This document shows, piece by piece, positions 19,453-60,571 of a stretch of 64,000 nt of DNA (within the stretch, counting starts at the first letter, position 1; every line of letters starts with the position of its first letter). Under the pieces are notes generated by a model, which had not been told where the DNA came from, searched no databases, and saw only the letters and a list, made by a program, of their open reading frames with translations. A program made the position numbers and the translations under genes. The stretch is from Gammaproteobacteria bacterium (GTDB lineage: Bacteria > Pseudomonadota > Gammaproteobacteria > GRL18). The stretch lies in assembly GCA_015488755.1 (NCBI GenBank), contig WFNB01000104.1, forward strand, positions 62,001-126,000, given 5' to 3'.

Positions 19453-19455
19453 ATT

Positions 19456-20658: not shown

Positions 20659-20673
20659 CCCCAACCTCCATTT

Positions 20674-20748
20674 GTACGGGCAATCTCTTGTGATTGTCAT
20701 TGCTGTCAATGACTGTGAATATTGGGCGAACACAAGGTTCGCCCCTAC
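20674..20748. repeat. Paired inverted GGGCGA-type palindromic repeats
   Basis: The gap between DUF1016 and hsdS holds two related repeat units in opposite orientation. The unit at 20720-20748 contains a perfect hairpin (GGGCGAAC/GTTCGCCC), and a degenerate unit begins at GTACGGGC (20674). A further perfect hairpin, GTCATTG/CAATGAC, lies between them. The arrangement resembles BIME/REP-type elements. A near-identical unit is present inside hsdR at 13926-13955. Confidence 0.6.
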
Positions 20749-20753
20749 GGGTT

Positions 20754-22635: not shown

Positions 22636-24190
22636 CTATTTTCACCTTTGCCAGATTCTCCAGTATCCGCTGGTTAAGTTCGGCTTCTTCTTTTAACTGG
22701 CTTTCAAATTCGGCTTTGAGGCTGTTAAAGCGTTCGGCAAAGTCAAAATCATCCTCTTCCTCTGCCAGCCCGACATAGCGCCCTGGTGTGAGCACATAAT
22801 CCAGTTCTTTTACCCGCTCAATGGGTGCGGCGTTACAAAAGCCTTTGATATCCTCATAGTCCCCATTTGGATTTCTCCAGTTGTGGTAGGTGTCGGCAAT
22901 GGTTTGTATATCGTCTGCGGAGAGTTCACGGGTACGACGGTTAATCAGATGCCCCATATTGCGGGCATCAATAAACAGAATTTCATTGGTGCGATTGCGC
23001 AGCCTTGAGCCATTGGAAAGAGTACCATTGGCACGGTTACGGCTCATAAACCACAGGCTGGCAGGTATCTGGGTATTGAGAAACAGCTTGGCAGGCAGGT
23101 TGACAATGCAATCTATCAACCCTGCTTCGACTAGGGCTTTTCTAATCTCGCCTTCGCCCGATGTTTTGGAAGTAAGTGCCCCTTTTGCCAGTACAAAACC
23201 TGCCAGTCCACTGGGGGTGAGGTGATAGATAAAGTGCTGTATCCACGCATAGTTGGCATTGCCCGTAGGTGGTGTGCCATATTGCCAGCGTCCATCCTTG
23301 CGCAGCAGATCGCCGCTCCAGTCGCTGACATTAAAGGGTGGATTGGCGATGATGTAATCGGCTTTTAAGTCTTTGTGGGCATCGTTTAAAAACGAGCCTT
23401 CGTTGTTCCATTTGACCTGTGAACTGTCAATACCACGAATGGCAAGGTTCATTTTTGCCAGTCGCCAGGTGGTCTGATTGCTCTCTTGCCCATAAATGGA
23501 GATATCGTTGATTTTGCCCTGATGTTCGGTGACAAATTTTTCCGATTGCACAAACATACCACCCGAACCACAGCAAGGGTCAAGCACCCGTCCCTTGTAG
23601 GGTTCGAGCATTTCTACCAGTAATTCAACCACGCTTCTTGGGGTGTAGAATTGGCCACCTTTTTTACCTTCTGCTAGGGCAAATTCACCAAGGAAGTACT
23701 CAAACACATGCCCCAACACATCCGCACTGCGGGACTTGGCATCTCCCAAAGCAATATTGCTGATGAGATCAATCAGTTCGCCCAAGCTGGTTGGGTCGAG
23801 GTTTTGCCGAGCATAGACTTTAGGCAATACACCTTTTAATGAGGTGTTTTCCTTTTCAATCGCATCCATCGCCTCATCAACGGTTTTGCCAATCGTCGGT
23901 TGTTTGGCATGGGCTTGCAGATGCGACCAACGGGCATCGGCAGGGACAAAAAAGACATTTTCAGCCTTGTATTCGTCCTTGTCTTCAGGGTCGGCTCCGG
24001 CATACTCGCCTTCACCGGCTTTTAGTTTGTCGTATAGCTCCTCAAAGGCATCAGAAATGTATTTGAGAAAAATCAAACCTAAAACTACATGCTTGTATTC
24101 AGCGGCATCAATGTTTTTTCTGAGCTTGTCAGCCGATTTCCAAAGCTGTTTTTCCAGTGATTCTTCTTGAATTTCTTTCTGCTTTGCCAT
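22628..24190 (-). CDS. hsdM: Type I restriction-modification DNA methyltransferase subunit M
   Basis: The 520-residue N6-adenine methyltransferase has the HsdM N-terminal helical domain (about 8-150), the [11 protein letters not shown] segment (178-188), the S-adenosylmethionine motif DPCCGSGG (204-211) and the catalytic NPPF (283-286). With HsdS it modifies host DNA, and with HsdR it forms the restriction complex. A GGAG ribosome site lies upstream. It is the first gene of the island operon. Only about 50 bases of island DNA precede it, so it may depend on transcription from the purine-salvage operon upstream. Confidence 0.96.
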
Positions 24191-36403: not shown

Positions 36404-37183
36404 TTAAGAGACAATAACCACTGTAACATTATCCTTGCCACCGGCAAGATTAGCGGCCTTAACTAATGCTTGGCATTTTTTCTCTGCTGGGATAACTTTC
36501 ATTAGATAGTGATTAATTTCACTCTCTGAGAGCATATCCGTAAGACCATCAGAGCAAAGGAGCAATTGATCACCTGCGGTTCTTGGCAGGCAAATAACAT
36601 CAGGGATAGGCGAGCGTTGCATACCAACATATTGGACTAATTGATTTTTCCCTGGGTGATGCAGAGCTTCTTCTTCATTAATTAGATCATTAGTTAATAA
36701 ATGATGCACTAGGGTATGATCAATGCTGAGTTGATGGAGTTGGTTATTTTTATGCAAATAAATCCGACTATCACCCAGATTGGCAATATAGCACTTATTT
36801 TTTGTTAATAATGCTAGGGCTAGAGTCGATCCCATGCCAGCATATTCTGGTCTGTTTTGGCTTTGTAATCGTATGCGATTGCTTAAATCAATAATGGCTT
36901 GCTTTAGTCTATCAATCAATTCTTTTGAGGTCAGAAGTTCTGGTTCAGCAATACGCTGCAACAAAAGCTCTGGTAATACTTGAGTGATCAGCATGGAGGC
37001 AATATCACCTGCGGGCATACCACCGACACCATCGGCAACAAAAAATAACCCCTGCTGAGGAAACAACCCGAAACTGTCCTCATTTTTCTTTCTGACTTTT
37101 CCTTGATCAGAAAGACCTCCATATTGAATAGCAGTGTATTGAGAGGATGCTTCACTAGAATAAAGTACGGTTTCATTGCTCAT
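36404..37183 (-). CDS. PP2C-family protein phosphatase
   Basis: The 259-residue phosphatase has the metal-binding motifs of PP2C/Stp enzymes: GKVRKKNEDSFG, LFFVADGVGGMPAGDIAS, ANLGDSRIYL, LLCSDGLTDMLSE and AGGKDNVTVVIV. It dephosphorylates Ser/Thr on protein targets, most likely those of the kinases encoded just upstream. Its start is three bases after the stop of the FHA-kinase gene. Confidence 0.95.
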   Translation of the reverse strand: MSNETVLYSSEASSQYTAIQYGGLSDQGKVRKKNEDSFGLFPQQGLFFVADGVGGMPAGDIASMLITQVLPELLLQRIAEPELLTSKELIDRLKQAIIDLSNRIRLQSQNRPEYAGMGSTLALALLTKNKCYIANLGDSRIYLHKNNQLHQLSIDHTLVHHLLTNDLINEEEALHHPGKNQLVQYVGMQRSPIPDVICLPRTAGDQLLLCSDGLTDMLSESEINHYLMKVIPAEKKCQALVKAANLAGGKDNVTVVIVS

Positions 37184-37186
37184 AAA

Positions 37187-38566
37187 TTAAATTACTTTTA
37201 GTAAATCTTCTTTGAATTGTGCCGCACTTTTATAATAAATCTCAGGCTGATCAACCAATGCCTGATCAATAATCTCAGCTAAGACTTCAGGGATAGATGG
37301 CTCATAAGATCGAATAGGTATGACTGGAGACTTCAGTGTCGTTAACCATGGATCGGATTCTTTGGTGTATTTTCTTGGGTGTTTACCCGTCACCATTTTA
37401 TAAAATGTTGCCGCAGCTGCCCAAATGTCCACCTCAGGTTTTGCAAACTTAAAATTAATCACTTGTTGTCTAGGCATGTAAAATGGTGTCCCCGCAGAGA
37501 CACCTGTTGCTGTACGCCCACTCAAACCGGCGACATCAAACGCTTTTGCCAAACCAAAGTCTGCTATTTTAACACAAAGCTCACCATTCACTTTGGTTAG
37601 CATAATATTACCCGGTTTTAAATCTCGATGGACTAAACCTGTTGCCGATGTTTTTTTACCATTAGCTAAGACAATAACAGGGATAGGAACGGTATGCGCA
37701 AACTCAAGACCCGAAAGAATTTGTAGTAATAATTTAAGGGCTTCAAACAAAGGAAGTTTACCCCCAGATTGTTTTATAAGTGAGGATAATGTTCCCGCTT
37801 CGCAATAATCCGTAGTAAAGAAAAAGGTATCATCATAACAACCAATATCATACACTCTAACAATATTGTTATGATCCAGTAGTTTGGTATTTTTAGTTTC
37901 TCTAATAAATTGCCCCCGAGCTTTGGGGTCACTTTCTACTTTAGGTAGCATTACCTTTAAGGCAATCTGCTTATCGTCATCCTCTTTTTTTGCCAGATAA
38001 ACAGCACCCATGCTTCCCTTGCCTAATTCACTAACGATGTTATAACCTTTAATGGCAATTAATTCATCATTATTATCATCATCAGCCTTGCCTAATAATA
38101 GGTTAATTTTATCCAGAGGGTCGACACTTTGAGAAGTGGTTATTTTTTGTGTGCCCTGCTCATTGTTCAAATTATTATTAAGCTGATTTATTTCTGGAGT
38201 TTCCTCTTTTTCAATAGCCACTTGAAAGATGCTTTCACCCAGTTTGAAACAATCATTGTGCTGCAAGTCATATTCTGGATAAATCATTTGTTTTGCTTTA
38301 TTTAAATCACAAGCAATGTCTCTTTGACCAATTTTTTCACCATTGACATAGGTACCATTTAAACTACCAAAGTCTCTAATACAAAGCTCTGGTGGGCTAA
38401 TATCAAGTAAACAATGGTAGCGTGAAATAGTGCTATGCGCCTGATCATCCGGCAATAAGATATTACAATCCAAGGCTCGCCCAATGACACAGGTTGCCCT
38501 TTCTTCAAAGTGATAGGTTTTTCCTGTCAAGCTTCCTTGAATGACTTTAAGTGTTATTTTATTCAA
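37187..38566 (-). CDS. FHA-domain Ser/Thr protein kinase
   Basis: The 459-residue protein has an N-terminal FHA phosphothreonine-binding domain (about 20-100: CVIGRALDCNILLPDD; ISRYHCLL; DFGSLNGTYVNGEKIG) and a Hanks-type kinase (about 168-455). The kinase shows ELGKGSMGAVYLA, the lysine in ALKVM, catalytic HRDLKPGN (about 311-318) and DFGLAKAF. The APE segment is replaced by MPRQQ. No transmembrane helix is seen, so it is probably cytoplasmic. It is flanked by its likely phosphatase and by a giant kinase. Confidence 0.93.
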   Translation of the reverse strand: MNKITLKVIQGSLTGKTYHFEERATCVIGRALDCNILLPDDQAHSTISRYHCLLDISPPELCIRDFGSLNGTYVNGEKIGQRDIACDLNKAKQMIYPEYDLQHNDCFKLGESIFQVAIEKEETPEINQLNNNLNNEQGTQKITTSQSVDPLDKINLLLGKADDDNNDELIAIKGYNIVSELGKGSMGAVYLAKKEDDDKQIALKVMLPKVESDPKARGQFIRETKNTKLLDHNNIVRVYDIGCYDDTFFFTTDYCEAGTLSSLIKQSGGKLPLFEALKLLLQILSGLEFAHTVPIPVIVLANGKKTSATGLVHRDLKPGNIMLTKVNGELCVKIADFGLAKAFDVAGLSGRTATGVSAGTPFYMPRQQVINFKFAKPEVDIWAAAATFYKMVTGKHPRKYTKESDPWLTTLKSPVIPIRSYEPSIPEVLAEIIDQALVDQPEIYYKSAAQFKEDLLKVI

Positions 38567-38615
38567 TTTTCAACCTCATTTTTACCTCTAACCGATTATG
38601 CTTTGACCATAATAA

Positions 38616-41600
38616 TTACCTTAAGTCATCACTTTGATCATCTCCTAGAGGATTATTTTCTGCCATTTTATTCTGGTAATCCGAGAGCATCATTATCGGT
38701 CTATTATTTTTCCTTATTACTAATGAACGCCAATGAGGATAACCATTAAGAACAATATCATCGTCTGTTTTATAAAGCTGATCAATCCCTGCTGAACGCA
38801 AAATAATTCTATTTTGAAAAGTGCCTGATTTCACTCCTTGATATTGAAATGTCTTACCCCACGAATCTGTTAATTCCTCTTCACTTAAGTGAAAAATATT
38901 TTCTAATTCAAGAAGTGTAGCCGGTACTAATAATGCTTTAACATTAATGCGTGTATTAATTACTTTAACTGACTGATTTAAATTTGCTAACGCACTGGCA
39001 ATATTAAGAATTTTATCTACAGTTTGTTGTTCCATCTCATCCGTAATAACGAGCCTTTCAGTCTCTTGTGGTGCTTTTTTAGCAACCGCATCATCGGATG
39101 TTCCTTCTTTAAAAAAGATGCTCACAATAATCAAAAAAACAAGACTGGCTAATACTAAATAAAATTTATTTTTTGTTTTTGATGATTTTTTGGTCTGAGT
39201 TCGATGACTATGGGTTAGTTGACGACCCGAAGCAATGGTACTGGTATTTACCTTAGAAAAATCTAATAACCTAGGTCCAACCTCATTTTTATCTAACCAA
39301 CCATAGCCGGTATAGTTCAAAATTCTAAAAACATTTTTAAGTGATTTATGGGCTTCTTCTTTTTTATGCGTCAGCATATAATTTTTTAAATACACATCCG
39401 CACCACTATTCCATTCATGATAAACTTCCGGCTTTAACAACCAATCTAATGACCAAACAAGTAAGGCACCGCTGGTATCACCTGAGATAGCATATTGGCC
39501 ATTCATACTTAACACCACACGACTATAATAGGCATTAGCATTATCAAAGGTATAAAGACACTGGCCATTCATCAGATCCCAAAATTTTATTGTTTTATCA
39601 TCACTCACCGAAAGCGCAATTTTATTTTGTTGATCAATCGTTACTTGATTAACCCGTTTAGTATGCCCCTGCATCACCCGTATGGATTTATTTCGACTCG
39701 ATTGCACTTTCCAAAAACGTAGGCTACCATCCGCACTGCCTGAAAGGAAATAGCGACCATCAGATGTTGTGGCAATACTGGTGACAATATTTTCATGCTC
39801 ATCTAATGTCGATACAATTTCACCCTGACTCATATCCCAGATCAGTATGGAATGATTATTACGTTGTCCCGTTAGCACAAAACGGCCATCCGGTGTGACT
39901 GCAATAACGGTCACTACATGCTGTTCATCTGTTAGATCGGTCATTATTTCACCGGTTAACAAACGCCATAAATAAAATTTACCACTATCATCACTCGATA
40001 GTACAAAACGCCCATCAGCACTAATGGCCATAGCATTGACATCATCACTATGATGGCAAAATAATGATAGCTGTCGGCCACTAATAATATCCATGACCAG
40101 AATATTTTTACCTGAGGCAATTAAGATGGCGGCTCCATCATGGGTTGTTTTCAAGCATGAAATAGGATGCTTAAATACTGAGAAAACACGGTTCATTTCT
40201 TGTGTTTTCATATCCCATTGATACACTTGATGATCTTTACTGGCAGAATAAAATTTATTATTAATAGGCGATACATCAATAGCGGTAATACGATCCGTGT
40301 GTTCTTTTAGCTCTTTATGTTTCCAGACATCTTTGAGCTGCACCTTCGGAAAAACTAAATACAATTTTGCTAAATAATTAAAGGCATTGATATCACGTTC
40401 ATAACCAGAAATAGAACGTGCCTGAGTAATTTTATCTAATGCGGTATCAAATATTTTTTCTCTTAGGGCTATTTTGGCCTGATCGATATTATTTTGATAA
40501 TGCCTTGATAGCTGATCAATTTCTGTAGCAGACTCTGGTAAGGAAAATAAATAAGAGGCACGATAACGGTAGGGATTGTTGGCTTCGATTAAACTCACAC
40601 CAGAAGCACTGAGTAATAAAGCAAACAAACCTTCACTGTCCAGACTAATATTGCGTATGGCATTGGGTAATTGGGTAATTGTATAGGATGACCCTGTGTC
40701 AATATTCCAAAAACGCACGATACCATCACTGCTACCAGAAATAATAAACCCCTGCTCGACATTCACTTTAAGTGAATTAATCATGCCTTTATGACCACGA
40801 TAAACCTTAAGACATTGCCCCGTTAAGGTATCCCATAAGCGTATACTCTTATCATGGCTTCCTGACACCAAATAGTGCTCATCCAGCCAACATACACAAC
40901 TTACTGACATGGTATGGCCTGATAATATTTTTTTTACTCGACCAGTAGTATTATCCCAAACTCGAATGGTATTATCGGCACTGCATGATGCTAATTGTTC
41001 TTGTTCCTGTGATAAGTGTATGTCGATTATTGCCGCACTATGTCCTTCACCATGAAAGTTTTTTATCTCTGCTTTTTCTTGTAGATCCCACTTAGATAAA
41101 ATCTTTTCATTTGAGGCACTATAAAGATAACGACCACAGGATGATAATTGCAGTTTATTTATATTTTCTTTATGCGCACTCCAAACATGGATCATATTAC
41201 CTGATGATAAATTCCAGAGACGAATATCTCCTTGTTCGGTACCGGAGATTAATATTTTTTCATCACGACTGACACAAATAGCGGTTATTCTTGCTAAATG
41301 CCCTTCAATTTTGTGAATAATTTTTTTCTCTTTCACATTCCAAAGAATAATGACATTTCTCTGGTTAAACAGGATCATATCACCCTGTCGAATAAACTGA
41401 GCCACATCCATATTTTTGTCAGCAATGCGATATAGCACTTCATAACCGGGTAAAAAAACGGCTATTGCCTGTTTAAGCTTCTTAGGAACATTACCAATAG
41501 TGCTACTGACTTTAAAAAATTCAGCCGCTTTTTTTGTTTGCCCATTACGTTGTAAGGCTAAGGTATAAGCGGTATTTAGGTATGGATCAATGGCATTATT

Positions 41601-43586
41601 TACTATTGCTTTTTGTAAACATTCAACCGCCATTGTCCATGAACTGGTTTTTTTACTTAAGCGTTTTAAAGAACATTGGGCAATACCTAAAACCTTATAA
41701 GCTTCATCAACAAGTCCCTTTGGTATCTCAGAAAGTGTTTTATGACCATTGTTAAGTATTTCAACCACTTTATTATAAAGAGAAAACTGTGTATATAATT
41801 GTGCTAACGCCAAGTTAACCCTTGAAGCTTTTTTATCACCTGCACTATCTGACCCTGAACTTTGATGGTAAGACTCTACTTTTGCTAATAGCTCCGCCTC
41901 TGGCAAACCTTGAAATTGCCATTGAAACCATAAATAATTATACGTTGTTTCAAAATGTTGAGGGTCAATCATAAGTGCATTTTGCCATGTTTGCACCGCT
42001 TCATCTGATTTACCCAAATCGAGGAGTGAAATTGCCTGATTATTTAAACTTGAAGCCGTACCATTACCATCTTTGGGCTGCTGTCTTGGGTACTCTTGCT
42101 TTGCCTCATCAAAATATATTCTTAATAAGGTCTCAGCAACCTCATTCAAATTAGCTGGGCGTTGCTCTTCTGACTCTTGAAAACAGTCTTCTAATAAAGC
42201 AGATAATGCTTTGGGGATACTCGCCACGGCAGGTTCATCATCTAAGGCATTACTATTATAGGCTTCTAGAATCCCCGGTGCGACTGCGCCTGCTTCCCAT
42301 GAGCAATAACCCAGAATCATTTCTAATAGACAAACTCCCCAGCTCCATAAATCCGTTCGACGCGTTAAGGCTTTACCTGCTAACTGTTCGGGTGAGGCAT
42401 AAGCAGGGGTCATTCCCATACCAGCAATAATCATTGTGCCATCATTTGCAGAGCCATTAGAGAGTTCATTGATATTCGCCATCGCACCGGCTTTAGCCAA
42501 ACCAAAATCGGTTATTTTGATAATGCCATCTAGGGTGGTCATCACATTAGCAGGCTTAATATCTTGATGGATAAGACCCTGCTCATGGGCATAATGAAGC
42601 CCCCAAGCGAATTGGATGGCAATATCTAAAATCGTCAATAAAACCTGTTTGTCATCTTGTTGATAGAGTTGTTTAGAGCTAATCAAGCCCTTGAGATCAC
42701 CACCATCAACATATTCACTAAAAATCTGTGGCACATCATTAATATTTCTCACATAATAGCAATTAACGATATTGGGGTGTAAATCAAGATTAACCCAAGT
42801 TTCGGCTTCTTTTTCAATGGTCTCAGAACCCACTAGCAGGGCTTTTTGTTTCGGTGTTTTAAGTGCTAGATCAATATTCCAGTCACGATGGTATACCTGA
42901 AAGACCTTACCAAATTGTCCCTCACCCAAAACGCCTTTCACCTCATACAATTCAAGCAATACATCGCCGACTTTCCAGTCATGAACAGAGTGTTCTAATG
43001 AGGTGATTTGTGAGCTTAAATAATCCGATCCCATACCAATGATTTCAGAAATTCTTGATTTTTGCCCACTTAATTTTTTTGATTTCTTAGTTTTATAGCT
43101 TGATGGTGATGCTAATTGAGTTTCTTGGGGAGAACTACTTATTGAGCCTAAGCTTTCAGGCGATGCCAGTTGAGTCTCTTGGGGAGAGCTACTTACTGAG
43201 CCTAAGCTTGCAGGCGATGCTAATTGAGTCTCTTGGGGAGAGCTACTTACTGAGCCTAAGCTTGCAGGCGATGCTAATTGAGTCTCTTGGGGAGAGCTAC
43301 TTACGGAGCCTAAGCTTTCAGGCGATGCTAATTGAGTCTCTTGGGGAGAGCTACTTACGGAGCCTAAACTTTCAGGCGATGCTAATTGAGTCTCTTGGGG
43401 AGAGCTGCCTATGGAGCCTAAGTTTTCAGGCAGTACCAGTTGAGTCTCTTGGGGAGCACTAGGAGCATCCATGCTCTTTTGGGCAATAAAGCGATGATCG
43501 CATTTTTTGCAATGCAACGAACGCCCCATATATTTCTGAGATATATTTTTATAGCGAGCCTGACATTTGGGGCAGGTTATATTCAT
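38616..43586 (-). CDS. Giant zinc-ribbon/kinase/TPR/WD40/membrane protein
   Basis: The 1656-residue protein is built as follows. An MJ0042-type zinc ribbon (CPKC...CKKC, residues 5-29) is followed by a 18-residue tandem repeat linker (about 44-162). A Ser/Thr kinase comes next (about 212-475), with GEGQFGKV, HQDIKPAN near 337 and DFGLAKAG. TPR-like helices span about 515-700. Two WD40 propellers lie at about 735-985 and 1090-1390, with repeats such as CSADNTIRVWDN and GSHDKSIRLWDT. A transmembrane helix is near 1471-1490, and a periplasmic tail of about 165 residues ends the protein. HQD replaces HRD in the catalytic loop. It probably senses cytoplasmic or envelope state and passes it to the FHA-kinase and PP2C pair. 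Confidence 0.9.
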   Translation of the reverse strand: MNITCPKCQARYKNISQKYMGRSLHCKKCDHRFIAQKSMDAPSAPQETQLVLPENLGSIGSSPQETQLASPESLGSVSSSPQETQLASPESLGSVSSSPQETQLASPASLGSVSSSPQETQLASPASLGSVSSSPQETQLASPESLGSISSSPQETQLASPSSYKTKKSKKLSGQKSRISEIIGMGSDYLSSQITSLEHSVHDWKVGDVLLELYEVKGVLGEGQFGKVFQVYHRDWNIDLALKTPKQKALLVGSETIEKEAETWVNLDLHPNIVNCYYVRNINDVPQIFSEYVDGGDLKGLISSKQLYQQDDKQVLLTILDIAIQFAWGLHYAHEQGLIHQDIKPANVMTTLDGIIKITDFGLAKAGAMANINELSNGSANDGTMIIAGMGMTPAYASPEQLAGKALTRRTDLWSWGVCLLEMILGYCSWEAGAVAPGILEAYNSNALDDEPAVASIPKALSALLEDCFQESEEQRPANLNEVAETLLRIYFDEAKQEYPRQQPKDGNGTASSLNNQAISLLDLGKSDEAVQTWQNALMIDPQHFETTYNYLWFQWQFQGLPEAELLAKVESYHQSSGSDSAGDKKASRVNLALAQLYTQFSLYNKVVEILNNGHKTLSEIPKGLVDEAYKVLGIAQCSLKRLSKKTSSWTMAVECLQKAIVNNAIDPYLNTAYTLALQRNGQTKKAAEFFKVSSTIGNVPKKLKQAIAVFLPGYEVLYRIADKNMDVAQFIRQGDMILFNQRNVIILWNVKEKKIIHKIEGHLARITAICVSRDEKILISGTEQGDIRLWNLSSGNMIHVWSAHKENINKLQLSSCGRYLYSASNEKILSKWDLQEKAEIKNFHGEGHSAAIIDIHLSQEQEQLASCSADNTIRVWDNTTGRVKKILSGHTMSVSCVCWLDEHYLVSGSHDKSIRLWDTLTGQCLKVYRGHKGMINSLKVNVEQGFIISGSSDGIVRFWNIDTGSSYTITQLPNAIRNISLDSEGLFALLLSASGVSLIEANNPYRYRASYLFSLPESATEIDQLSRHYQNNIDQAKIALREKIFDTALDKITQARSISGYERDINAFNYLAKLYLVFPKVQLKDVWKHKELKEHTDRITAIDVSPINNKFYSASKDHQVYQWDMKTQEMNRVFSVFKHPISCLKTTHDGAAILIASGKNILVMDIISGRQLSLFCHHSDDVNAMAISADGRFVLSSDDSGKFYLWRLLTGEIMTDLTDEQHVVTVIAVTPDGRFVLTGQRNNHSILIWDMSQGEIVSTLDEHENIVTSIATTSDGRYFLSGSADGSLRFWKVQSSRNKSIRVMQGHTKRVNQVTIDQQNKIALSVSDDKTIKFWDLMNGQCLYTFDNANAYYSRVVLSMNGQYAISGDTSGALLVWSLDWLLKPEVYHEWNSGADVYLKNYMLTHKKEEAHKSLKNVFRILNYTGYGWLDKNEVGPRLLDFSKVNTSTIASGRQLTHSHRTQTKKSSKTKNKFYLVLASLVFLIIVSIFFKEGTSDDAVAKKAPQETERLVITDEMEQQTVDKILNIASALANLNQSVKVINTRINVKALLVPATLLELENIFHLSEEELTDSWGKTFQYQGVKSGTFQNRIILRSAGIDQLYKTDDDIVLNGYPHWRSLVIRKNNRPIMMLSDYQNKMAENNPLGDDQSDDLR
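43101..43457 (-). repeat. In-frame 54-base tandem repeats in the giant kinase gene
   Basis: Six full units and one partial unit of 54 bases encode an 18-residue repeat (consensus SPQETQLASPESLGSVSS). Neighbouring units are nearly identical in DNA, with E/A and V/I exchanges, which indicates recent expansion. The repeats are rich in Ser and Thr and lie between the zinc ribbon and the kinase. The frame stays open at any unit number. Confidence 0.9.
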
Positions 43587-51502: not shown

Positions 51503-52039
51503 TTAAAACATACTCTTTTCTGATTTTGCCATAGCAAGATCATCGGACCACTGCCCTTTTAACTCACCCATAAGAGTAAACATTTTTAATTGTAACGTGT
51601 AATACACTAATTCTTTGCCACCTTTACCATACTGACGAGTAGAAGTTAATTCACTTTTAATGATGTAGTCAAAACTGGTGGCTGATTTATCAACCACACG
51701 CATCACACCTGAATTAAATAAGGTTTCTTGAATTCGATCATGTAAATCACTCATACGCACATTTTCATTATCAGTATTATTAAGTGGCGTGGCAGCAATG
51801 ACTTTAGGCTTTCTCTTACCCCAACCTTGAACCAGTTTAGAGACTAACATTTTATTAGTCACTTGCTCAGCTAAAGCAACATAATCGGCCATAGTTAATT
51901 GTGCTTGTAGATGCCCACGGCTTTTAGCATCAACCATAGCCACATCAGATTGTTGTCCAACAGGAACCGATTGACAACCTGTAACGGCAATTGTAGAACT
52001 TATAAGAGAGAGCAGTATTGTTTTTTTTGCAAAATTCAT
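51503..52039 (-). CDS. lpoB: LpoB-like penicillin-binding-protein activator lipoprotein
   Basis: The 178-residue protein has a lipoprotein signal ending VTGC. The mature part resembles LpoB: VIAATPLNNTDNENVRMSDL, LHDRIQETLFNSGVMRVVDK and YYTLQLKMFTLMGELKGQWS. LpoB is an outer-membrane lipoprotein that activates the murein synthase PBP1b and shares a fold with CsgG and FlgO. The upstream ycfL-like gene supports the call, since ycfL and lpoB are adjacent in Enterobacteria. A terminator follows. Confidence 0.85.
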   Translation of the reverse strand: MNFAKKTILLSLISSTIAVTGCQSVPVGQQSDVAMVDAKSRGHLQAQLTMADYVALAEQVTNKMLVSKLVQGWGKRKPKVIAATPLNNTDNENVRMSDLHDRIQETLFNSGVMRVVDKSATSFDYIIKSELTSTRQYGKGGKELVYYTLQLKMFTLMGELKGQWSDDLAMAKSEKSMF

Positions 52040-52066: not shown

Positions 52067-52537
52067 TTATTTTTGATACTTATTGTTAATAATAAAGGGG
52101 TCATCAGGCAATCGAACGGTAAAAACAACCTTATAGGCTTCTTGAACCTTGCCTGTTGCAGTTACTGTATCAATTTGTGTGGGGGATAAAGTAAAACGGT
52201 GCCAAACACCGGATTGATCCAACATAAAGCCATTGGCATCTTCCCATTCAACTTTGTACTCAAGGTTATAGCGAACATCCGATAAGTTTTGAATACCGAT
52301 TTGTGCCTGAGTAAACAGCCCCACTTTTCTAAATTTAATATTCGCCATACGAATATTACCTACCAAGCGATCAGAGCCTAATACTAAACGTGCTCTTGGA
52401 TGCGTATCATCCAAGGTATCTTGAGCAACAAAATTAGGGTTTTCTGCCACAGTTGCCGGCTTGCAGGCAGACACAGAAAAAACAGTTATCAGGAGTAGAG
52501 ATAGCATCAAGTACGATGGCATCTTAGTTTGTTTCAT
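52067..52537 (-). CDS. ycfL: YcfL-family lipoprotein
   Basis: From ATG 52537 (AGGA ribosome site) the 156-residue product has a lipoprotein signal ending SVSAC. It shows the DUF1425/YcfL pattern GDxLVGNI-like LGSDRLVGNIRMANIKFRKV, then YNLEYKVEWEDANGFMLDQS. Its function is unknown, but it is conserved next to lpoB. It lies 27 bases upstream of the lpoB gene and nine bases after the next gene, so all three are probably one transcript. Confidence 0.85.
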   Translation of the reverse strand: MKQTKMPSYLMLSLLLITVFSVSACKPATVAENPNFVAQDTLDDTHPRARLVLGSDRLVGNIRMANIKFRKVGLFTQAQIGIQNLSDVRYNLEYKVEWEDANGFMLDQSGVWHRFTLSPTQIDTVTATGKVQEAYKVVFTVRLPDDPFIINNKYQK

Positions 52538-52573
52538 AGCAATATCCTTTATTATTATTGGCAATTAAAATAA

Positions 52574-54415
52574 TTAGTTGGCGGTCCATAAGCGCTTCGA
52601 TGAATTGACATAAAGTTGTTTATCAATACTACGGGCATAAATAAAGACATCGGATTGTTTATTGATCGCAATGATTTTACTTGCCAAACGTCGGCCTCGA
52701 GCATCAAAACTCACCAATTTTAGCTTTTTAGTGTTTTTACTAATATGCAATCGAGCAGCCTGAAGAGTAGCCGGCAAACTCATCCATGAACGCATATCAG
52801 GTGCCGCCATATCATTGACCGCAGCACCCAGTATATTACCAAAAACACCCAGTTTTTGAGTGGCCTGAGTCACCCCAATGGCACGAGTAATTGCCAAGGT
52901 CATACGCAAGGTACGAAAGGCTTCAGTGTCTTTTTGATGTCTTAAGCTAATGGCTTCAATATCAGCTACAGGTGACAGCCTTGCTAAGCGCTTACCGCCT
53001 GTCGTTTGCACTTCAATGCGTGCTACTTTGGAAGGAACCGGCTCATAAATAGGTAATTTAATAGGTACAATACCACCCTTACCGGTAGAAAAATTATAGA
53101 CTAACATTTTCTTTTCAGGAACAAAGCCATCACCTACCACAACATGCAATAAACGTTTATTACGATAGGACTTTTTGCCTTTCATATCCTTAAGTGCTTG
53201 CTGAATCACCTTACTCTTAGGATTTAATTCCAAGGCTTTTTTATAGGCAATACGAGCATTATCTTTTAGGGAAGGGTCTTTAACACTCTCAAATTCCTGA
53301 ATCATACCCGTTACATAGTAACCAAAGGGGTTAACAAAAGCACTGGGGACTTTGGCTGCAATTTTATCCAGCTTTCTATAACGTGACTTCCAATCACTAC
53401 TTGATGCTGCTTGCTTCTTTGCTTCTTGTTTAGACTCATTAGTTTCTTTTTTGGCTTTATCTACTTTGTCTTTAAACTTTGCTTTTTCCATATTCTGCCA
53501 ATCAATCGCACGGCGAGCTACATTATAAGCCTGACGTTTGCCATCAAGTAAATAGGCAATGGATTTATAGTTAAGCATAAGCACTTTTTCATAACCCTCT
53601 CCTGGATAATTTTGAAATTCTTCATTACCCGTCACGGTCTCTGCGGCAAATGAGGTTAAAGAAGTTAAAAAATCAGAGGTTTTAGAGTCTTTTTGTCGTA
53701 CTTTTAAAATATTTTCAGCATTATCAAAGGATTTAATGGACTTATCTAATTTATTACTATCCAGATATAAGGTGCCCCTTTCCATCCAACGCAATAAACC
53801 AATGTCATTAACCGCTTGCCATTTGGTCTTACCTTTTAAAATTTTAGCTTCACGATCATTGAAGAATTGCTCAATTCCAGCCAAATTACCTGAAACCATC
53901 ATCTGTTTTACTTTTTGAAACTCTTTTGAGTAACCAGCATAGTGAACATTTTGTTTATTCTTTGTTTTACCTACCGAGGCATTGACAGAAGAACCGGTCG
54001 TGTCAGATGAAATAGCCACTTGCTCAGAACTAATGGTCACTAAGGGTTTATAAACCCAGCCTGCCACTAAACCATTAGCACTATCGGCTTCTATCTGTAA
54101 CCAATTACCCTCTGTTGCTAGAATACGAATGCTATCATCTGGAGTGAGTCGCCCCACTTTTTCATTGGATGTTCCAGGGCCAGAACGAACATTAACCGCT
54201 TTACTAACAGAACCGACAGGCACCATCACTTCTTGTGGTTCTTGCTTAACCGGCTCTGGCTGAACAGCGGCTCTTTGAGTCTTAGAAGGTTGCATTAATG
54301 AACGTTGCAGATCATGTGAAAGCTGGTCAAAAAAACCCGCATAAAGGTTTTGTTGTAGCAATATTGCAGCCAATGCGATTGCACTTAGAACAATTTTTTT
54401 ATTATTTTTTTTCAT
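52574..54415 (-). CDS. Exported SH3b protein of the COG3014 type
   Basis: The 613-residue product has a signal peptide (ending near LLQQNLYA), an SH3b domain at about residues 60-130 (KAVNVRSGPGTSNEKVGRLT; NWLQIE) and TPR-like helices at about 185-430. The latter include NYPGEGYEKVLMLNYKSIAY, the signature of COG3014 proteins, and a beta-rich C-terminal third follows. Such proteins are found with ycfL and lpoB in Vibrio and relatives. They are thought to be envelope proteins of unknown role. ATG 54415 was preferred to the GTG three codons before it. Confidence 0.78.
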   Translation of the reverse strand: MKKNNKKIVLSAIALAAILLQQNLYAGFFDQLSHDLQRSLMQPSKTQRAAVQPEPVKQEPQEVMVPVGSVSKAVNVRSGPGTSNEKVGRLTPDDSIRILATEGNWLQIEADSANGLVAGWVYKPLVTISSEQVAISSDTTGSSVNASVGKTKNKQNVHYAGYSKEFQKVKQMMVSGNLAGIEQFFNDREAKILKGKTKWQAVNDIGLLRWMERGTLYLDSNKLDKSIKSFDNAENILKVRQKDSKTSDFLTSLTSFAAETVTGNEEFQNYPGEGYEKVLMLNYKSIAYLLDGKRQAYNVARRAIDWQNMEKAKFKDKVDKAKKETNESKQEAKKQAASSSDWKSRYRKLDKIAAKVPSAFVNPFGYYVTGMIQEFESVKDPSLKDNARIAYKKALELNPKSKVIQQALKDMKGKKSYRNKRLLHVVVGDGFVPEKKMLVYNFSTGKGGIVPIKLPIYEPVPSKVARIEVQTTGGKRLARLSPVADIEAISLRHQKDTEAFRTLRMTLAITRAIGVTQATQKLGVFGNILGAAVNDMAAPDMRSWMSLPATLQAARLHISKNTKKLKLVSFDARGRRLASKIIAINKQSDVFIYARSIDKQLYVNSSKRLWTAN

Positions 54416-54443
54416 AGTTACCACTATTTATTAATATAATTTA

Positions 54444-57185
54444 TTACCAAGCAGGTTGCATAACTCGCTGTTTTGGCTTTTTAATAGGCTTACTTGGTTT
54501 GCGTAGCACATCACCACTAACAGGCGCTGAACCTGATAAAAGTTCTGCACGAGAGCGTGCGCCTTCAACTTCGGTAACCCGAATAGTAGCAATTTTACTC
54601 TCAGCCTGACCAAAAGACTGCCCTGTGTCAGGATCAATCAATGCTTGTCCTGGGCGCATCACAATATAGTGTTCACCTACTTTAAGACCAGAGTCCGCAC
54701 CACGATTCAGATATACTGCACCATCAGCAGAGGAACCCATAACCTTAATGGGATACAACCGAGCTACAATTTTTGCCACCGCACGCGTGCTAAATTGAGT
54801 GATCATTTTACTAATGATCTGAGTGCTATCATTAATACCTTTTAACTTACCATTAATAGTAATTTTTTCAGAGCTGATAATAGCACCTGTGTGCACATCA
54901 ACAATACGGAACGTCCCTTCTACATGCGTCGTGCTAATGACTTGAACTTCATCCATATAGGGTACTTTTTTGCGTTTGGTATCAATATAAAAGTTAATCA
55001 ATTCACCGTGAATCAAATAATCTGCACCGGCTAATTCGCCCAAGCGAGCCTGTATATCACCACCAGAGGCAATGGCTTCAAAGGTTTTTTCATCCAGCAC
55101 CTGATCCACTTCTTCACGCTCCAATAACGTAAAGCGTTTGCTATTATTGAGCCCCATAATAATATCATCCGAAATGCGCTCCAAATGACCGTGGTTAAAA
55201 CGATTAATCACTCTCGCTGAATGATTCAGAGCAATACTGCCCATGGCTAATGTCAAAGATCCTTTATGCGTTGCTACTTGTTTACTGCCAAGCGTGCTAC
55301 TAGAACGTTTTGGTGCACTTTGACGCTCATGAGATGCCACACTACTGCGTTTTGATTTGTTTTTTGCTGTGCGTTTGAGCAAATCACCGCGAGCAATACT
55401 CATTCCTTCAATTTGCTCGCCCTTACTACGGGCATCTTCTACTTCTGTGACCAATAATTTACCGACATAGCTTTCTTCAACACCCAATTGTACTCCTGAA
55501 TCTGGGTCAATAATTGCCTGCCCTGGCTTGTAAATCGCCAGTTCTTCACCAACAAATAAGCCGCCATCATTGCCTCGATTGATATAAATAATACCATTTT
55601 GACTCACATGAGCTGCTTTTATAGGGTATAAGGCATTCATTAACATGAGAACCACCTGTTCTGAATACGCATCGGCTAATTGATCAACCATTTCTGATTC
55701 AGTGACACCGGTATTAATGGCCTGCTCGACAATAATCTTGCGTGATTCAATCACATCACCACTGCGAGCATCAACAATACGCATATTACCGCTAGCCTGA
55801 GCAATACGCTTTTTGAAAACACGATTGGAGCCGGGTAATTTAGTCACTTGTTGTTTATCTGTTAGTGAGGCTAGATTACCATAAACCAAATAGTCTGCAC
55901 CTTTAAGGGTACCCATAGCGCTAGGCACATTTCTATTTTCAGCTAATGCCTGAGCGTATTGTTCATCCAGCAGTTGATCCACTTCTTGACGATCAATTAA
56001 CTGAAAACGCTTCGTTTGTGTGAGGCGAGAAATCATCGTATCGGTAAAAATAGGCACATGTTCTTGTGCTCGCAAGCTGGTTCTAGCTGTTGAGGCATTT
56101 TTTATCAGACCAACCGCCAATCTTGGTATTTTAGGCACCTGTCTCATGCTAGCAGAAGTAGCCGTCTTTTTTATCGCCACAGGGGATTGTTGAGCAACCA
56201 GTGCCGAGCCACTTTTTTGCTCTTCCAATATGGCAAGATCATTAATTTGAAAATGATTACCTGACACTGGTTTTACAATGGCAATGGTTGCTTGCACATT
56301 AACGACTTCAACCATGCCCACTTTGCTTTTTAGACGAGCCAATAATAAGCCACTTTTATTGCGTATTTCTTTACCTTCATTTTCAATGGTATAACGAGCA
56401 CCTTGTTTAATGCCGTCATTGCTACCACGAGAAATAATCAAAGGATCAAGACTGACAATACGTGCAGGAAACGTAACATCAAGAATTTTTGCCGCAGCTA
56501 ATGACGCTAAATGATCATAAAAAGTAAATTCATCTGAATCACTTTCTTTACCCTGAAACAAAGACTCTGATAGCTTTGTTTTAATGCTAGCAGCACCTGC
56601 AACCGTACCATTTTTAGCATCAATGATCCGTAAACGTAAACGGGCATCAACACGATTGGTCTGCACCACTTTACCACTGGTACTATAAGGCACGGCTTTT
56701 TGCTTAAGCGTGCGTTTAAGTTGTTCCAAATCACCCAAAACGATGTAATCAGCACCTACCGTTGTACCCAGCTCTTTGAAGCTTTTTACCACATCGTTAT
56801 AATTACTCCAGTCACTGGTCGCATACACTTCACTGCCTGAATTATCTTTCATGGTCTCTATGGCTTTATCCAGTGTTTTATCCAGCGAATTTTTTTGCAT
56901 TTTCTGACCAAAACGCTGTTCCAGAACGGCGCGTCTTAATGCCTTACGCTCAACCACTGTAAAACGCTGGTTATTACTGAGTTTTTCAATAATGCGCCCA
57001 GCCAATACGTCTGGTAAGCCCACCCGTTGAGAGCCAGTTCTATCCGGTACAAAGTCAGTAAAAGACATCACTGAAATAGTTGCTTTCTCTGCCTTGGCAT
57101 TAGTCTCTGCCATCGCCTGAGTAAATAATGCTGTCATCATCATTGCTAAGGCAATCATTGACAGTGGTTTTATTAAGTGCTTCAT
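54444..57185 (-). CDS. Exported protein with three CsgG/FlgT-like modules
   Basis: The 913-residue product has a signal peptide ending TQAMA and three repeats of the same two-part unit (about residues 35-330, 355-615 and 645-895). Each begins with a CsgG-type half (e.g. DVLAGRIIEKLSNNQRFTVV; VDQLLDEQYAQAL; GADYLVYGNL). The second and third end with an FlgT-like half that reads INRGNDGGLFVGEELAIYKP and LNRGADSGLKVGEHYIVMRP, each followed by a GQA-IDPD-G turn. The modules are diverged, so the duplication is old. Related single-module proteins act at the outer membrane or flagellar base. The role here is unknown. Confidence 0.85.
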   Translation of the reverse strand: MKHLIKPLSMIALAMMMTALFTQAMAETNAKAEKATISVMSFTDFVPDRTGSQRVGLPDVLAGRIIEKLSNNQRFTVVERKALRRAVLEQRFGQKMQKNSLDKTLDKAIETMKDNSGSEVYATSDWSNYNDVVKSFKELGTTVGADYIVLGDLEQLKRTLKQKAVPYSTSGKVVQTNRVDARLRLRIIDAKNGTVAGAASIKTKLSESLFQGKESDSDEFTFYDHLASLAAAKILDVTFPARIVSLDPLIISRGSNDGIKQGARYTIENEGKEIRNKSGLLLARLKSKVGMVEVVNVQATIAIVKPVSGNHFQINDLAILEEQKSGSALVAQQSPVAIKKTATSASMRQVPKIPRLAVGLIKNASTARTSLRAQEHVPIFTDTMISRLTQTKRFQLIDRQEVDQLLDEQYAQALAENRNVPSAMGTLKGADYLVYGNLASLTDKQQVTKLPGSNRVFKKRIAQASGNMRIVDARSGDVIESRKIIVEQAINTGVTESEMVDQLADAYSEQVVLMLMNALYPIKAAHVSQNGIIYINRGNDGGLFVGEELAIYKPGQAIIDPDSGVQLGVEESYVGKLLVTEVEDARSKGEQIEGMSIARGDLLKRTAKNKSKRSSVASHERQSAPKRSSSTLGSKQVATHKGSLTLAMGSIALNHSARVINRFNHGHLERISDDIIMGLNNSKRFTLLEREEVDQVLDEKTFEAIASGGDIQARLGELAGADYLIHGELINFYIDTKRKKVPYMDEVQVISTTHVEGTFRIVDVHTGAIISSEKITINGKLKGINDSTQIISKMITQFSTRAVAKIVARLYPIKVMGSSADGAVYLNRGADSGLKVGEHYIVMRPGQALIDPDTGQSFGQAESKIATIRVTEVEGARSRAELLSGSAPVSGDVLRKPSKPIKKPKQRVMQPAW

Positions 57186-57239: not shown

Positions 57240-58133
57240 TTATTCACGAACAATATCACCTTTTTCAACAGCACCTTCGGTTCCCTTAAGTACTTTTGCG
57301 GTGGTAAACTTAGGGTTCACGCGAGTCACCTTAATCTTACCAATTTCTTCCTCAGCAGAACCTAGATTTTCACCAGTATCTGGGTCAATTAACTCAATAC
57401 CGGGACGAAAGACCTTAAGTACATCGCCTTTTTTCAAGCCACCATCTTTACCACGGTTAATCCAGACTTGATCGCCTTTGACATTAAGCACCTTCATTGG
57501 GAAAACAGCATCCACAAGTTGATCGGTCATCTGAGCGGCAATTTTTTTCGCCATCCGAGTAAAGTGGACGCTATTGGGTACACCACCTTTACTATTCACA
57601 ACTTGTCTTTTGGTCGCAAACGAGGCTTTAAGGTAGAAGGTCGTTTTGATACCCCCTGTTGCGGTGTCAATAATTTGGGCATTGACTTCCAGCATACCAG
57701 AATCAACACGCAAATATTTATGATCCAAGTTAGGCACAGGCTTACTGGATCGGTAAAATTTAAAGTCTTGTACCGTAGGTAAGATCAGAAAATTAGCATT
57801 CTTAATGTGCCCTTCTGCTGCAGCATTACCTGCGGTTAAATCAGACTTCGCAAATTCTTGTTCTTCACGAATATCTTGCAAAACGCCTTTTTTACGACTC
57901 ACTAAGAGAAATTTGCGATTCTTTTGGATAGCAGATTCCATTTCATCCCATAAAGTACCTAAATTAAGGTAGCGTTTAGAGTATTTACTCACACCTTCAC
58001 CAATTTTTGCTTTTTTAATTGCAATCACAGGCTTTGCTCTGGGTGCTGCAGAGGCTGAAAGGCTAATAAAGCAAAAAACTGTCATCAATATTACAGTTAA
58101 TACCAAGGTAAATCGTTTATTATTTTTTTTCAT
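57240..58133 (-). CDS. Exported protein with one CsgG/FlgT-like module
   Basis: The 297-residue product starts at ATG 58133 with a signal peptide ending near SASA. A CsgG-like half (about 40-220) is followed by an FlgT-like end, INRGKDGGLKKGDVLKVFRP and IELIDPDTGENLGSAEEEIG, clearly related to the modules of the downstream triple protein. It lies 54 bases upstream of that gene and is probably co-transcribed with it. Confidence 0.82.
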   Translation of the reverse strand: MKKNNKRFTLVLTVILMTVFCFISLSASAAPRAKPVIAIKKAKIGEGVSKYSKRYLNLGTLWDEMESAIQKNRKFLLVSRKKGVLQDIREEQEFAKSDLTAGNAAAEGHIKNANFLILPTVQDFKFYRSSKPVPNLDHKYLRVDSGMLEVNAQIIDTATGGIKTTFYLKASFATKRQVVNSKGGVPNSVHFTRMAKKIAAQMTDQLVDAVFPMKVLNVKGDQVWINRGKDGGLKKGDVLKVFRPGIELIDPDTGENLGSAEEEIGKIKVTRVNPKFTTAKVLKGTEGAVEKGDIVRE

Positions 58134-58196
58134 CACATCATCCAAAGTTAAATCCATACCTAAAAATTAAATAGGCACACAATCTTAAATAAATTT

Positions 58197-58389
58197 AATT
58201 AACCTGAGTTCTGGATAACTAAACAAGCAACGTATTAATTAGCCTGTATTTGTTACAGAAGTCGCCGTAAATACATCCTTGTAGGCTTCACTTTGGCATC
58301 CATGCCAAAGAGACTTCTTCCACAAACACAGGCTAATCAATACTCTAAAGTTATTTTCAAGACAATCTTATCCAGAGTTCAGGTTAATT
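58197..58389. mobile_element. MITE-like palindromic element, 193 bases
   Basis: Three nested inverted repeats define it. The outer arms at 58197-58218 and 58368-58389 match at 20 of 22 positions. The inner arms at 58238-58263 and 58312-58337 match at 22 of 26. A perfect central hairpin, CTTTGGCAT/ATGCCAAAG, lies at 58291-58310. The middle reads like the CCGTAAATACATCC...GGCATCCATGCC repeats common in gammaproteobacteria. It has no coding capacity and sits between the CsgG-like and caspase genes. Confidence 0.75.
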
Positions 58390-58435
58390 ATTATTAATTT
58401 ATGGTTTTTAATCTATAGCTCTTAATCGCACTATG

Positions 58436-60571
58436 TTAATCGACAGTCCTTACCAAGCGAAAACCAACATGTTCTATTTTCTTATTTTGGGTAAAACCAT
58501 AGCGTGCAGCAGAGCGGTTCTGAGATAAAGTATCTGCCCAGTTACCGCCTTTAACAACTCGTTTATTACCCTCTGACGCCCCGTTAGGATCAGTCGCATC
58601 ACGAGTCGATAAACTGCCGTATTTATCCTGAGTCCACTCCCAGACATTGCCTATCATATCATATAGCATCCATAAGCTAGGCTCTTTCAAGCCAACGGGA
58701 TGTGTGCCACAACGCTTAGCATTAAATTCTTTTTCATCCCAATCATCACAATAACGGCCACCTTTGTATTGCACACCACTATTACCGCTATACCAAGCAA
58801 TTTTATTCAATATGGATGCATGGTTTGCACCTAATAATTCGGCATCACCCATATAGGTCGCTGATTGCGTGCCCGCTCGTGCAGCATATTCCCACTCAGC
58901 TTCTGTTGGCAAACGATAGTGTTGCCCTGTTTGTAAGTTCAACTTAAAAATAAAGCCCTGAACTTCATCCCAGCTGACTCGTTCTACTGGACAATTCACG
59001 CCACAGCCTTTAAAGAAAGAGGGGTTATAACCCATCACTTTTTGCCATTGTGCCTGTGTGACTTCAAATTCTCCTATCCAAAAATCTTTACTTAAACAGA
59101 CCTTATGTGCTTTTTCATCATTCAAACGCCCTTCTTCCAATGGCGAGCTACCCATGGTAAAACAACCTGATTTTACTTGTACAAATGGCATATTAATGAT
59201 CGGCTCAATCTTTTTATTAATAGATTCTACTTGAGGAGGTGCAGAAGCAGAATGAGTGACTGTAAATGTGTTAGCCACGACATCAATAGTTGGAATATCA
59301 TCATTAAGCACTACTTGTTGCATTTCAGGTTCTGGCAATTTAACTTTCTTGATTGCATTTAATGCTGATGCAGTAGAACGTGAATTATTGGCAAGCGTAT
59401 GGCTGGCTTGTAAAGCAAATTGTAAGGCCAAATGTTGTTTCGCTAAAATAGTTATTTTTTTGTTAATGGTATCAAAACCCAATTTGCTGATCTCAATCAC
59501 ATACTCACCCGGTTCAAGACTGAATGTTGCTTTACTAGAACCACGAGGCTCACCATTAATTTTAATGGTGTCACCAAATACATTAGAGCGAATAGTCAAC
59601 ATACCATTACCCAATTGCTTTAATTGTCCTTGTGCTGCCAAACGAAAATCACCTTGAGGAAATTTTTTCAAATAGGCTTCATACAACTCTCTGGAGGGAT
59701 CTTTTTGTATGGCACGCCAATAATCCAGCTCAAATTGATCCGCTGAATAATAGCGTCCTGATGACAATGCTTTCTCTGATTCTGATAATTCCACAAAAGA
59801 GAACTCACCTAATAAGGATGAATTTTCCCAAGGAACTTGCTCCCCTGATGAGTCATGTACAACTGCGACACGAACCTTTTTGAATAATTGCTCAATGGTC
59901 TGATTGGGGATGTCAATATTTTTTAAAATATATTGAGTATAAAGACCGTTATCTCCTGAGCCATCTGCAGCGATACTACCCGGTGCAGTAGCATAAGCAA
60001 TAAATGAGGCTGATGGCGCTTTAATAACAGCCAGGCCCTGCTCATTTTTTGTACCTATATGCTTACTCAAGGGATTATTACGGCAGGCATCTAGAACGAC
60101 AATATTAATCCCATTACCGGCTTGTTCCATTTTTTGTAAGATATCTGATAGCGAAATTGCCTGTTTAATAATATCGTCTTCATCCGTCATATTGGCATTA
60201 ACAGGTATCAAATAATTGGTTCCATCCGCTTGTACACCATGGCCCGCATAATAAAAAAAGCCCACATCCGCTTCTTTAAGTTGCTGAGCAAATATTTGCA
60301 GTCTCTCTTGTATCTGTTCATTGGATTGATCTAATTCGACACTGACATCAAAGCCTAATTTCTCCAACGATTCGGCAATGTCTGAGGCATCATTAACTGG
60401 GTTTTTTAAGGGTGAGCCTGAGTAATTGCTATTACCAATCACTAATGCCACACGCTTTTCAGTAGCATAGGCAGAATTTATTAATAAGCAAAAAGAAAAT
60501 AAGAACAAGAATACGTAAGTACTACTATGTCTCATATTTGATAAAACTTTTATATTAACTGTCATGACCAT
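58436..60571 (-). CDS. Secreted caspase-PEGA-FGE fusion protein
   Basis: The 711-residue product has a signal peptide (FLFLFSFCLLINSAYA) and a caspase-fold peptidase at about 40-260, with catalytic His111 in YYAGHG and Cys163 in LDACRNNP. A PEGA domain follows at about 323-387 (LEPGEYVIEISKLGFDTINK). An FGE/sulfatase-modifying-type domain spans about 463-709 (GCFTMGSSPLEEGR; RLPTEAEWEYAARAG; GNVWEWTQDKYG; RVVKGGNWAD). It should act in the periplasm. FGE-like domains here are more likely sugar- or protein-binding than true formylglycine-forming enzymes. ATG 60571 has AAGG upstream. Confidence 0.9.
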   Translation of the reverse strand: MVMTVNIKVLSNMRHSSTYVFLFLFSFCLLINSAYATEKRVALVIGNSNYSGSPLKNPVNDASDIAESLEKLGFDVSVELDQSNEQIQERLQIFAQQLKEADVGFFYYAGHGVQADGTNYLIPVNANMTDEDDIIKQAISLSDILQKMEQAGNGINIVVLDACRNNPLSKHIGTKNEQGLAVIKAPSASFIAYATAPGSIAADGSGDNGLYTQYILKNIDIPNQTIEQLFKKVRVAVVHDSSGEQVPWENSSLLGEFSFVELSESEKALSSGRYYSADQFELDYWRAIQKDPSRELYEAYLKKFPQGDFRLAAQGQLKQLGNGMLTIRSNVFGDTIKINGEPRGSSKATFSLEPGEYVIEISKLGFDTINKKITILAKQHLALQFALQASHTLANNSRSTASALNAIKKVKLPEPEMQQVVLNDDIPTIDVVANTFTVTHSASAPPQVESINKKIEPIINMPFVQVKSGCFTMGSSPLEEGRLNDEKAHKVCLSKDFWIGEFEVTQAQWQKVMGYNPSFFKGCGVNCPVERVSWDEVQGFIFKLNLQTGQHYRLPTEAEWEYAARAGTQSATYMGDAELLGANHASILNKIAWYSGNSGVQYKGGRYCDDWDEKEFNAKRCGTHPVGLKEPSLWMLYDMIGNVWEWTQDKYGSLSTRDATDPNGASEGNKRVVKGGNWADTLSQNRSAARYGFTQNKKIEHVGFRLVRTVD

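Follow-up and report, generated by a model that had tools for sequence, protein, structure and literature searches.

The stretch of DNA analysed here (the window) comprises 64,000 nucleotides of contig WFNB01000104.1 from a gammaproteobacterium, and contains, on its reverse strand, a real open reading frame of 711 codons at positions 58436–60571. Judging from the aligned starts of five orthologues, translation most likely begins at the ATG at 60535, 12 codons inside the start at 60571, which gives a protein of 699 residues (58436–60535, reverse strand, as are all the features described below unless stated otherwise). The protein combines (i) a Sec signal peptide, recognised by eye in the orthologue alignment (residues 1–24, 60464–60535), with a predicted cleavage site after SAYA; (ii) a caspase (Peptidase_C14) domain (59801–60457; Pfam match 9.1e-45, residues 39–257 of the 711-codon frame); (iii) a PEGA domain (59405–59605; Pfam match 4.8e-11, residues 323–389 of the same frame); and (iv) a C-type-lectin-like domain of the FGE-sulfatase family (58448–59185; Pfam match 7.1e-41, residues 463–708). 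The scores of the three Pfam matches lie far above the family cut-offs, so that they are not chance matches, and the succession of signal peptide, caspase, PEGA and FGE-type domains in one chain, which an earlier note had read from the sequence of the window, is borne out. The intact caspase dyad of that note, His111 and Cys163, is right in its own numbering and becomes His99 (codon 60239–60241) and Cys151 (codon 60083–60085) with the likely start. A scan for promoters and terminators gave results at or below chance, and a plasmid search matched 546 records, in none of which a single place accounted for 80% of the query.

In all six full-length orthologues, inspected by eye, the N-terminal hydrophobic stretch closes with AxA (in one case VxA) just before the caspase domain and is directly followed by a conserved xE(K/T)R motif, and the end of the signal is devoid of a lipobox in every case. 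The mature window protein contains seven cysteines: the active-site residue and six others, all within the FGE-like domain. The latter form three pairs, 458–480, 511–515 and 596–609, and each of the 32 alignment rows that cover the FGE-like domain has either both members of a pair or neither (the pairs occur in 13, 12 and 7 rows, respectively; the count excludes two caspase-only rows, L139 and L140, in which a stray letter falls in the FGE columns). Cysteines gained and lost two by two are expected of disulfide partners and suit an oxidising compartment, and the three pairs are consistent with disulfides formed outside the cytoplasm. The caspase protein thus appears to cross the inner membrane, the signal peptide arguing for the exported location proposed in the earlier note rather than for a cytoplasmic one.

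The structure was modeled with AlphaFold from a 49-row alignment (mean pLDDT 83.7), a model built from the six orthologues only (mean pLDDT 36.1) being set aside. Together with the Pfam match, the superposition of the model on MALT1 (Z 27.3, 210 residues, rmsd 2.9) confirms the caspase fold. Residues 1–225 of the model align with MALT1 340–562, and residues 1–226 with procaspase-6 42–291; given these spans, a p10-like half may be present, the possession of a p20 without a p10 being the trait that separates orthocaspases from metacaspases. The C-terminal domain adopts the FGE fold, as judged from both Pfam and the model, the nearest folds being those of TvpA (Z 31.6) and PvdO (Z 30.1), with matches also to PorK/GldK (Z 24.8) and FGE itself (Z about 25). 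The fold search barely covered the PEGA domain and the linkers.

Residues His99, Cys151, Arg152, Asp49 and Asp191 are invariant in the 27 alignment rows that cover them, as is Asp149 in all of its 28 rows. In the sequence alignment, Asp49, Asp149 and Asp191 coincide with the three acidic residues of the MALT1 S1 pocket, which we take to be Asp365, Asp462 and Glu500 (numbers counted by hand on the alignment). Because the acidic S1 residues of MALT1 have invariant counterparts here, the enzyme is predicted to cleave after Arg or Lys. According to an excerpt of PMC6426788, two Asp residues are the basis of the preference of TbMC2 for basic residues and are conserved in orthocaspases, and an excerpt of PMC5756287 states that all characterised C14 members except caspases prefer Arg/Lys. 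As certain bacterial caspase-like enzymes cleave after Leu (excerpt of PMC9612521), Arg/Lys specificity remains a prediction.

The C-terminal domain is not expected to work as its family name suggests. At the catalytic positions of human FGE, marked in our sequence alignment by the C336S and C341S entries, the window protein has Asp668 in place of Cys336 and a deletion where Cys341 would be. With the catalytic cysteine pair absent, FGE chemistry by the known route is impossible, and the identification of this domain as an FGE enzyme was rejected. The domain is therefore probably a binding module; according to an excerpt of PMC8195603, FGE-type domains share their fold with C-type lectins.

Directly downstream of the caspase gene, on the same strand and after a 278-bp spacer, lie the CsgG-like genes, the gene order being CASP–CsgG1–CsgG3–SH3/TPR–DUF1425–LpoB. 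Every product carries an export signal. CsgG1 (57240–58157, with a possible start at 58133) is a CsgG-like protein with an FlgT_C domain and a signal peptide without lipobox; CsgG3 (54444–57185) contains three CsgG-like repeats and likewise an FlgT_C domain; they are followed by an SH3_3 and TPR-like exported protein (52574–54424; domains from Pfam, signal peptide by eye), a DUF1425 (YcfL-like) lipoprotein (52067–52564) and an LpoB-like lipoprotein (51503–52039), the lipoboxes of the last two being identified by eye. With respect to the Pfam CsgG cut-off of 20.8 bits, CsgG1 scores below (17.4) and CsgG3 above (97.4); CsgG3 also matches LpoB (4.5e-13). The LpoB-like protein exceeds the Pfam LpoB cut-off and falls below that of NCBIfam (42.9 versus 110.55 bits). 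Among Pfam families, neither another curli component nor a wall synthase was found in the cluster, and none of the ten proteins scanned in the region is a gasdermin. The earlier note had placed the CsgG-like neighbours in the outer membrane. This placement is unsupported: by eye, the signals of CsgG1 and CsgG3 both end without a lipobox cysteine, CsgG1 stays below the CsgG cut-off, and a phmmer search of the PDB with CsgG3 returned three weak matches only (E 0.034–0.041), none of which is a CsgG channel. An outer-membrane CsgG channel was therefore not retained as an identity for the neighbours, which may be arranged in some other way.

The spacer between the caspase and CsgG1 genes is occupied by a palindromic repeat of about 200 bp (58196–58400, no strand assigned) that resembles a MITE or some other mobile hairpin element. 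A copy search found it 40 times in the genome at full or near-full length, with 79–100% identity and counting the copy of the spacer, plus 13 further matches that are short, and the predicted RNA fold of the spacer repeat is very stable (z −8.2). In G004, G006, G009 and G012, CsgG1 starts about 50–105 bp after the caspase gene, versus 278 bp in the window; the spacer of G005 is a run of N. From its position, the palindromic repeat may uncouple expression of the caspase from that of CsgG1 in the window genome.

How general the association is was assessed in 24 genomes of the order, all from one family. Six of them (the window genome, G004, G005, G006, G009 and G012) encode a full-length caspase orthologue, 63–74% identical to the window protein, and in each of the six the caspase gene directly precedes CsgG1–CsgG3–SH3/TPR–DUF1425–LpoB on the same strand (in G005, the contig end cuts the LpoB-like gene). 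In G022, which belongs to another genus, CsgG1 and a CsgG3 of two repeats are present without a caspase, and a glycine-zipper gene lies directly upstream of CsgG1. The downstream cluster is also present in G011, whose contig ends within CsgG3, short of the position of a caspase gene. The remaining 16 genomes, five of which are less than 85% complete, lack both a CsgG1 match and a full-length orthologue; among them, CsgG3 finds a marginal match in G017 (9e-4), and G015 and G016 encode exported-looking caspase–PEGA–FGE proteins (about 40% identity) with no CsgG genes in the readable flanks. Fisher's test of caspase against cluster, which is not corrected for phylogeny, gives p = 7e-5 without G011 and p = 2e-4 with G011 counted as a cluster without caspase. 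The earlier note had proposed looking for co-occurrence of the two gene sets, and the same five-gene cluster indeed accompanies the caspase in six genomes out of six.

When 27 caspase domains are placed in a tree, the six linked ones group in a single clade (support 1.000), which indicates that the linkage arose once, as one evolutionary event. The caspase–cluster block sits in four different flanking contexts: GshA and an AI-2E family transporter in the window genome, G004 and G005; ParA- and CheW-like genes in G006; PrfB- and LysS-like genes in G012; and TruD-, IspF-, IspD- and enolase-like genes in G009 (names outside the window were assigned by reading the sequences). As the flanks differ while the block is constant, the block survived or travelled as a unit. 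The divergence of the caspase correlates with that of CsgG3 (r = 0.92 over 15 genome pairs), a correlation that common vertical inheritance would produce by itself. The linkage is thus real but local, being confined to a lineage.

The cluster itself reaches further. In a class-wide sample of 369 genomes, nine have a CsgG1-like match at 1e-15, two of these in the genus of the window, and we examined the seven regions outside that genus. In four of them, from two other families (L116, L117, L118 and L120), a CsgG-like gene adjoins an SH3/TPR-like gene; three of the four also show a DUF1425-like match and all four a second CsgG/LpoB-like reading frame, whereas none has a caspase match. The envelope cluster is therefore older and wider than its caspase, and, since it occurs without caspase in these four regions and in G022, the partners do not need the caspase. 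Conversely, caspase–FGE fusions found elsewhere have no CsgG genes in their readable flanks. Being encoded next to the caspase is not enough to identify a protein as its substrate.

If one of the neighbours is cut, CsgG3 offers the most obvious place. The linker between its repeats 2 and 3 (residues 600–645) contains 24% Arg/Lys and 4% Asp/Glu, and the core of this linker, LLKRTxxNKxKRxSVA, is kept in all six caspase-bearing genomes. The CsgG3 of the caspase-less G022 lacks both repeat 2 and the basic linker; the linker is present in G011, the genome with the truncated contig. Residues 595–650 display 41% invariant columns, versus 65% for the whole protein, and only the basic core stands out. 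The conserved basic linker is perhaps the prime candidate cleavage region, a lead suggested by its sequence, but basic linkers are common in general, which weakens the case for it as a target.

Each part of the caspase protein has known relatives. MALT1 is its best caspase-domain match by both sequence and fold, with the same acidic S1 positions, but the two proteins are only about 26–27% identical, and MALT1, a cytosolic protein with Ig and death domains, has no FGE-like domain. TvpA of Treponema denticola, PvdO and the PorK/GldK proteins of the type IX system, the nearest folds of the C-terminal domain, lack an FGE role; they differ in having no caspase domain, PorK being a lipoprotein of a secretion ring. 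On the side of the partners, the cluster resembles CsgG/HfaB, FlgT and LpoB in that CsgG3 and the LpoB-like protein exceed the respective Pfam cut-offs and FlgT_C is found in both CsgG proteins; it departs from CsgG/HfaB by the missing lipoboxes, the three repeats per CsgG3 chain and the absence of other curli families. Substrates are known for only a minority of bacterial caspase homologues. Fusions of a caspase domain with a following FGE-sulfatase domain have been known since 2012: the excerpt of Asplund-Samuelsson 2012 (PMC3501461) lists 33 prokaryotic metacaspase–FGE-sulfatase sequences and remarks that the N-terminal helices of certain caspase homologues may be signal peptides, and an excerpt of PMC5756287 describes another caspase–FGE fusion, MaOC4 of Microcystis. 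Compared to the fusions as described there, the window protein has an additional PEGA domain between the two others, a Sec signal kept in six orthologues and a position at the head of a conserved CsgG/LpoB cluster; PMC3501461 nowhere uses the words PEGA or periplasm in its text. Bacterial gasdermin–protease pairs, in which the gene of a caspase-like protease adjoins that of its presumed target, offer a parallel in gene arrangement, but form a cell-death system with a pore former (excerpt of PMC9612521), whereas the window cluster has no gasdermin. A caspase–CsgG operon is not described in the titles and abstracts of the open-licence papers searched, and operon coupling of a caspase–FGE fusion to a CsgG cluster was not found in this literature. 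The caspase protein is thus ordinary in its parts and unusual in its setting, being lineage-specific, operon-coupled and apparently exported.

Altogether, the conserved first-gene position of the caspase suggests, without proving, that it clips or controls envelope proteins. We tentatively favor, as a reading that may well prove wrong, that the exported, disulfide-stabilised caspase homologue supplies the proteolytic activity of an envelope module, as a ligand-gated periplasmic Arg/Lys protease that cuts an envelope partner. Heading the cassette, the protein would use its PEGA and FGE-like domains to bind a ligand or partner rather than to synthesise formylglycine; once the FGE-like arm engaged its ligand or docked on the complex, the caspase would clip an accessible basic segment of the partner after Arg or Lys, the prime target being the CsgG3 linker, and the clip would switch or dismantle the envelope complex. 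In this scheme, we infer the location, activity, specificity, co-transcription and ligand gating of the protease as well as the choice of a partner as substrate. It is also quite possible, if somewhat doubtful, that the exported caspase has a task of its own, such as degradation of exported or foreign proteins, stress response or autolysis, and that the envelope genes are neighbours by descent and not substrates. The G015 and G016 proteins, which look exported and have no CsgG genes in their readable flanks, the single origin of the linkage and the retention of CsgG1–CsgG3 without caspase in G022 all fit such a task, but the caspase and the cluster stayed together while their flanks varied four ways, and the spacers of about 50–105 bp in four genomes are short.

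Other readings fare less well. The caspase could control peptidoglycan synthesis by clipping CsgG/LpoB-like and SH3/TPR regulators of wall synthases and thereby stopping growth, as the LpoB-like gene at the end of the cluster, the SH3_3 domain of the TPR protein and the LpoB match of CsgG3 might suggest; we consider this unlikely, as the cluster contains no synthase and the LpoB-like protein remains under the NCBIfam cut-off. A role in programmed death or phage defence, as an effector of the gasdermin–caspase kind, appears very improbable: despite a PADLOC caspase match (9.3e-13) and the FGS/C-type-lectin domains reported in bacterial gasdermin operons (excerpt of PMC9612521), the signal peptide and the paired cysteines point outside the cytoplasm, no gasdermin was found in the ten proteins scanned, and the caspase is kept with envelope genes. 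As the PADLOC match is weak and generic and the only one, a defence system was not retained. That the protein joins a protease to an enzyme that activates sulfatases by generating formylglycine is hardly credible, since the strength of the Pfam match and an FGE fold match of Z about 25 are contradicted by the missing catalytic cysteines. Returning to the envelope protease that we favor, a more specific and unlikely version is a periplasmic sense-and-cut switch, in which the lectin-like FGE domain would read a wall or surface ligand and license the caspase to cut a CsgG/LpoB-type complex at the basic linker, PEGA–FGE being maybe a reusable sensor for CsgG proteins; if true, this would be a caspase pathway in an extracytoplasmic compartment. 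In any case, the conserved operon points to five candidate partners and to a single region as a candidate for cleavage, and, were the partners cut, the caspase would act on the envelope outside the cytoplasm, unlike the cell-death and toxin–antitoxin roles in the cited literature.

A general coupling of PEGA–FGE modules with CsgG-like proteins was looked for in G126 and in regions L028–L044 and L150–L165, and was not established there. G126 is the only other genome of the order of G242 in the collection analysed; its CsgG-like and kinase–FGE genes lie on different contigs. LpoB- or CsgG-like reading frames occur in two (L032 and L040) of the 17 loci L028–L044, which were picked by similarity to the query, and among the 16 class-wide caspase/FGE regions L150–L165, several of which are limited by contig ends, an LpoB-like gene is present only in L156, on the other strand and at a distance of about 3.5 kb. 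Individual cases were nevertheless seen. In the unrelated genome G242 (L122:6074–10193), a CsgG–FlgT_C gene is followed after 64 bp by a Ser/Thr kinase–PEGA–PEGA–FGE gene, i.e. the same C-terminal module as in the caspase protein with a different effector. In a Prevotellaceae genome (L032:6957–8144), a single reading frame joins an LpoB-like N-terminal part, above the LpoB cut-off, to an FGE-like domain, and in Bacteroides (L040:9407–10705) another one joins a CsgG-like N-terminal part, below the Pfam CsgG cut-off, to such a domain.

Some further features deserve mention. The window genome has a second caspase gene (G000:C53:19799–20449, L002), which encodes a TPR-like protein with a C-terminal caspase domain and an apparent signal peptide, and on the 5.2-kb contig G015:C398 (L123) the caspase–PEGA–FGE gene is preceded by a second caspase-like match (31% identity). 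Within the window, where the following names were assigned by reading the sequences, positions 11596–24190 carry Type I restriction–modification-like genes interleaved with those of an OLD-like ATPase/nuclease, a UvrD-like helicase and others, and positions 36404–43586 encode, on one strand, a PP2C-like phosphatase, an FHA-kinase and a 1656-residue kinase with a zinc-ribbon-like start and WD40-like repeats.
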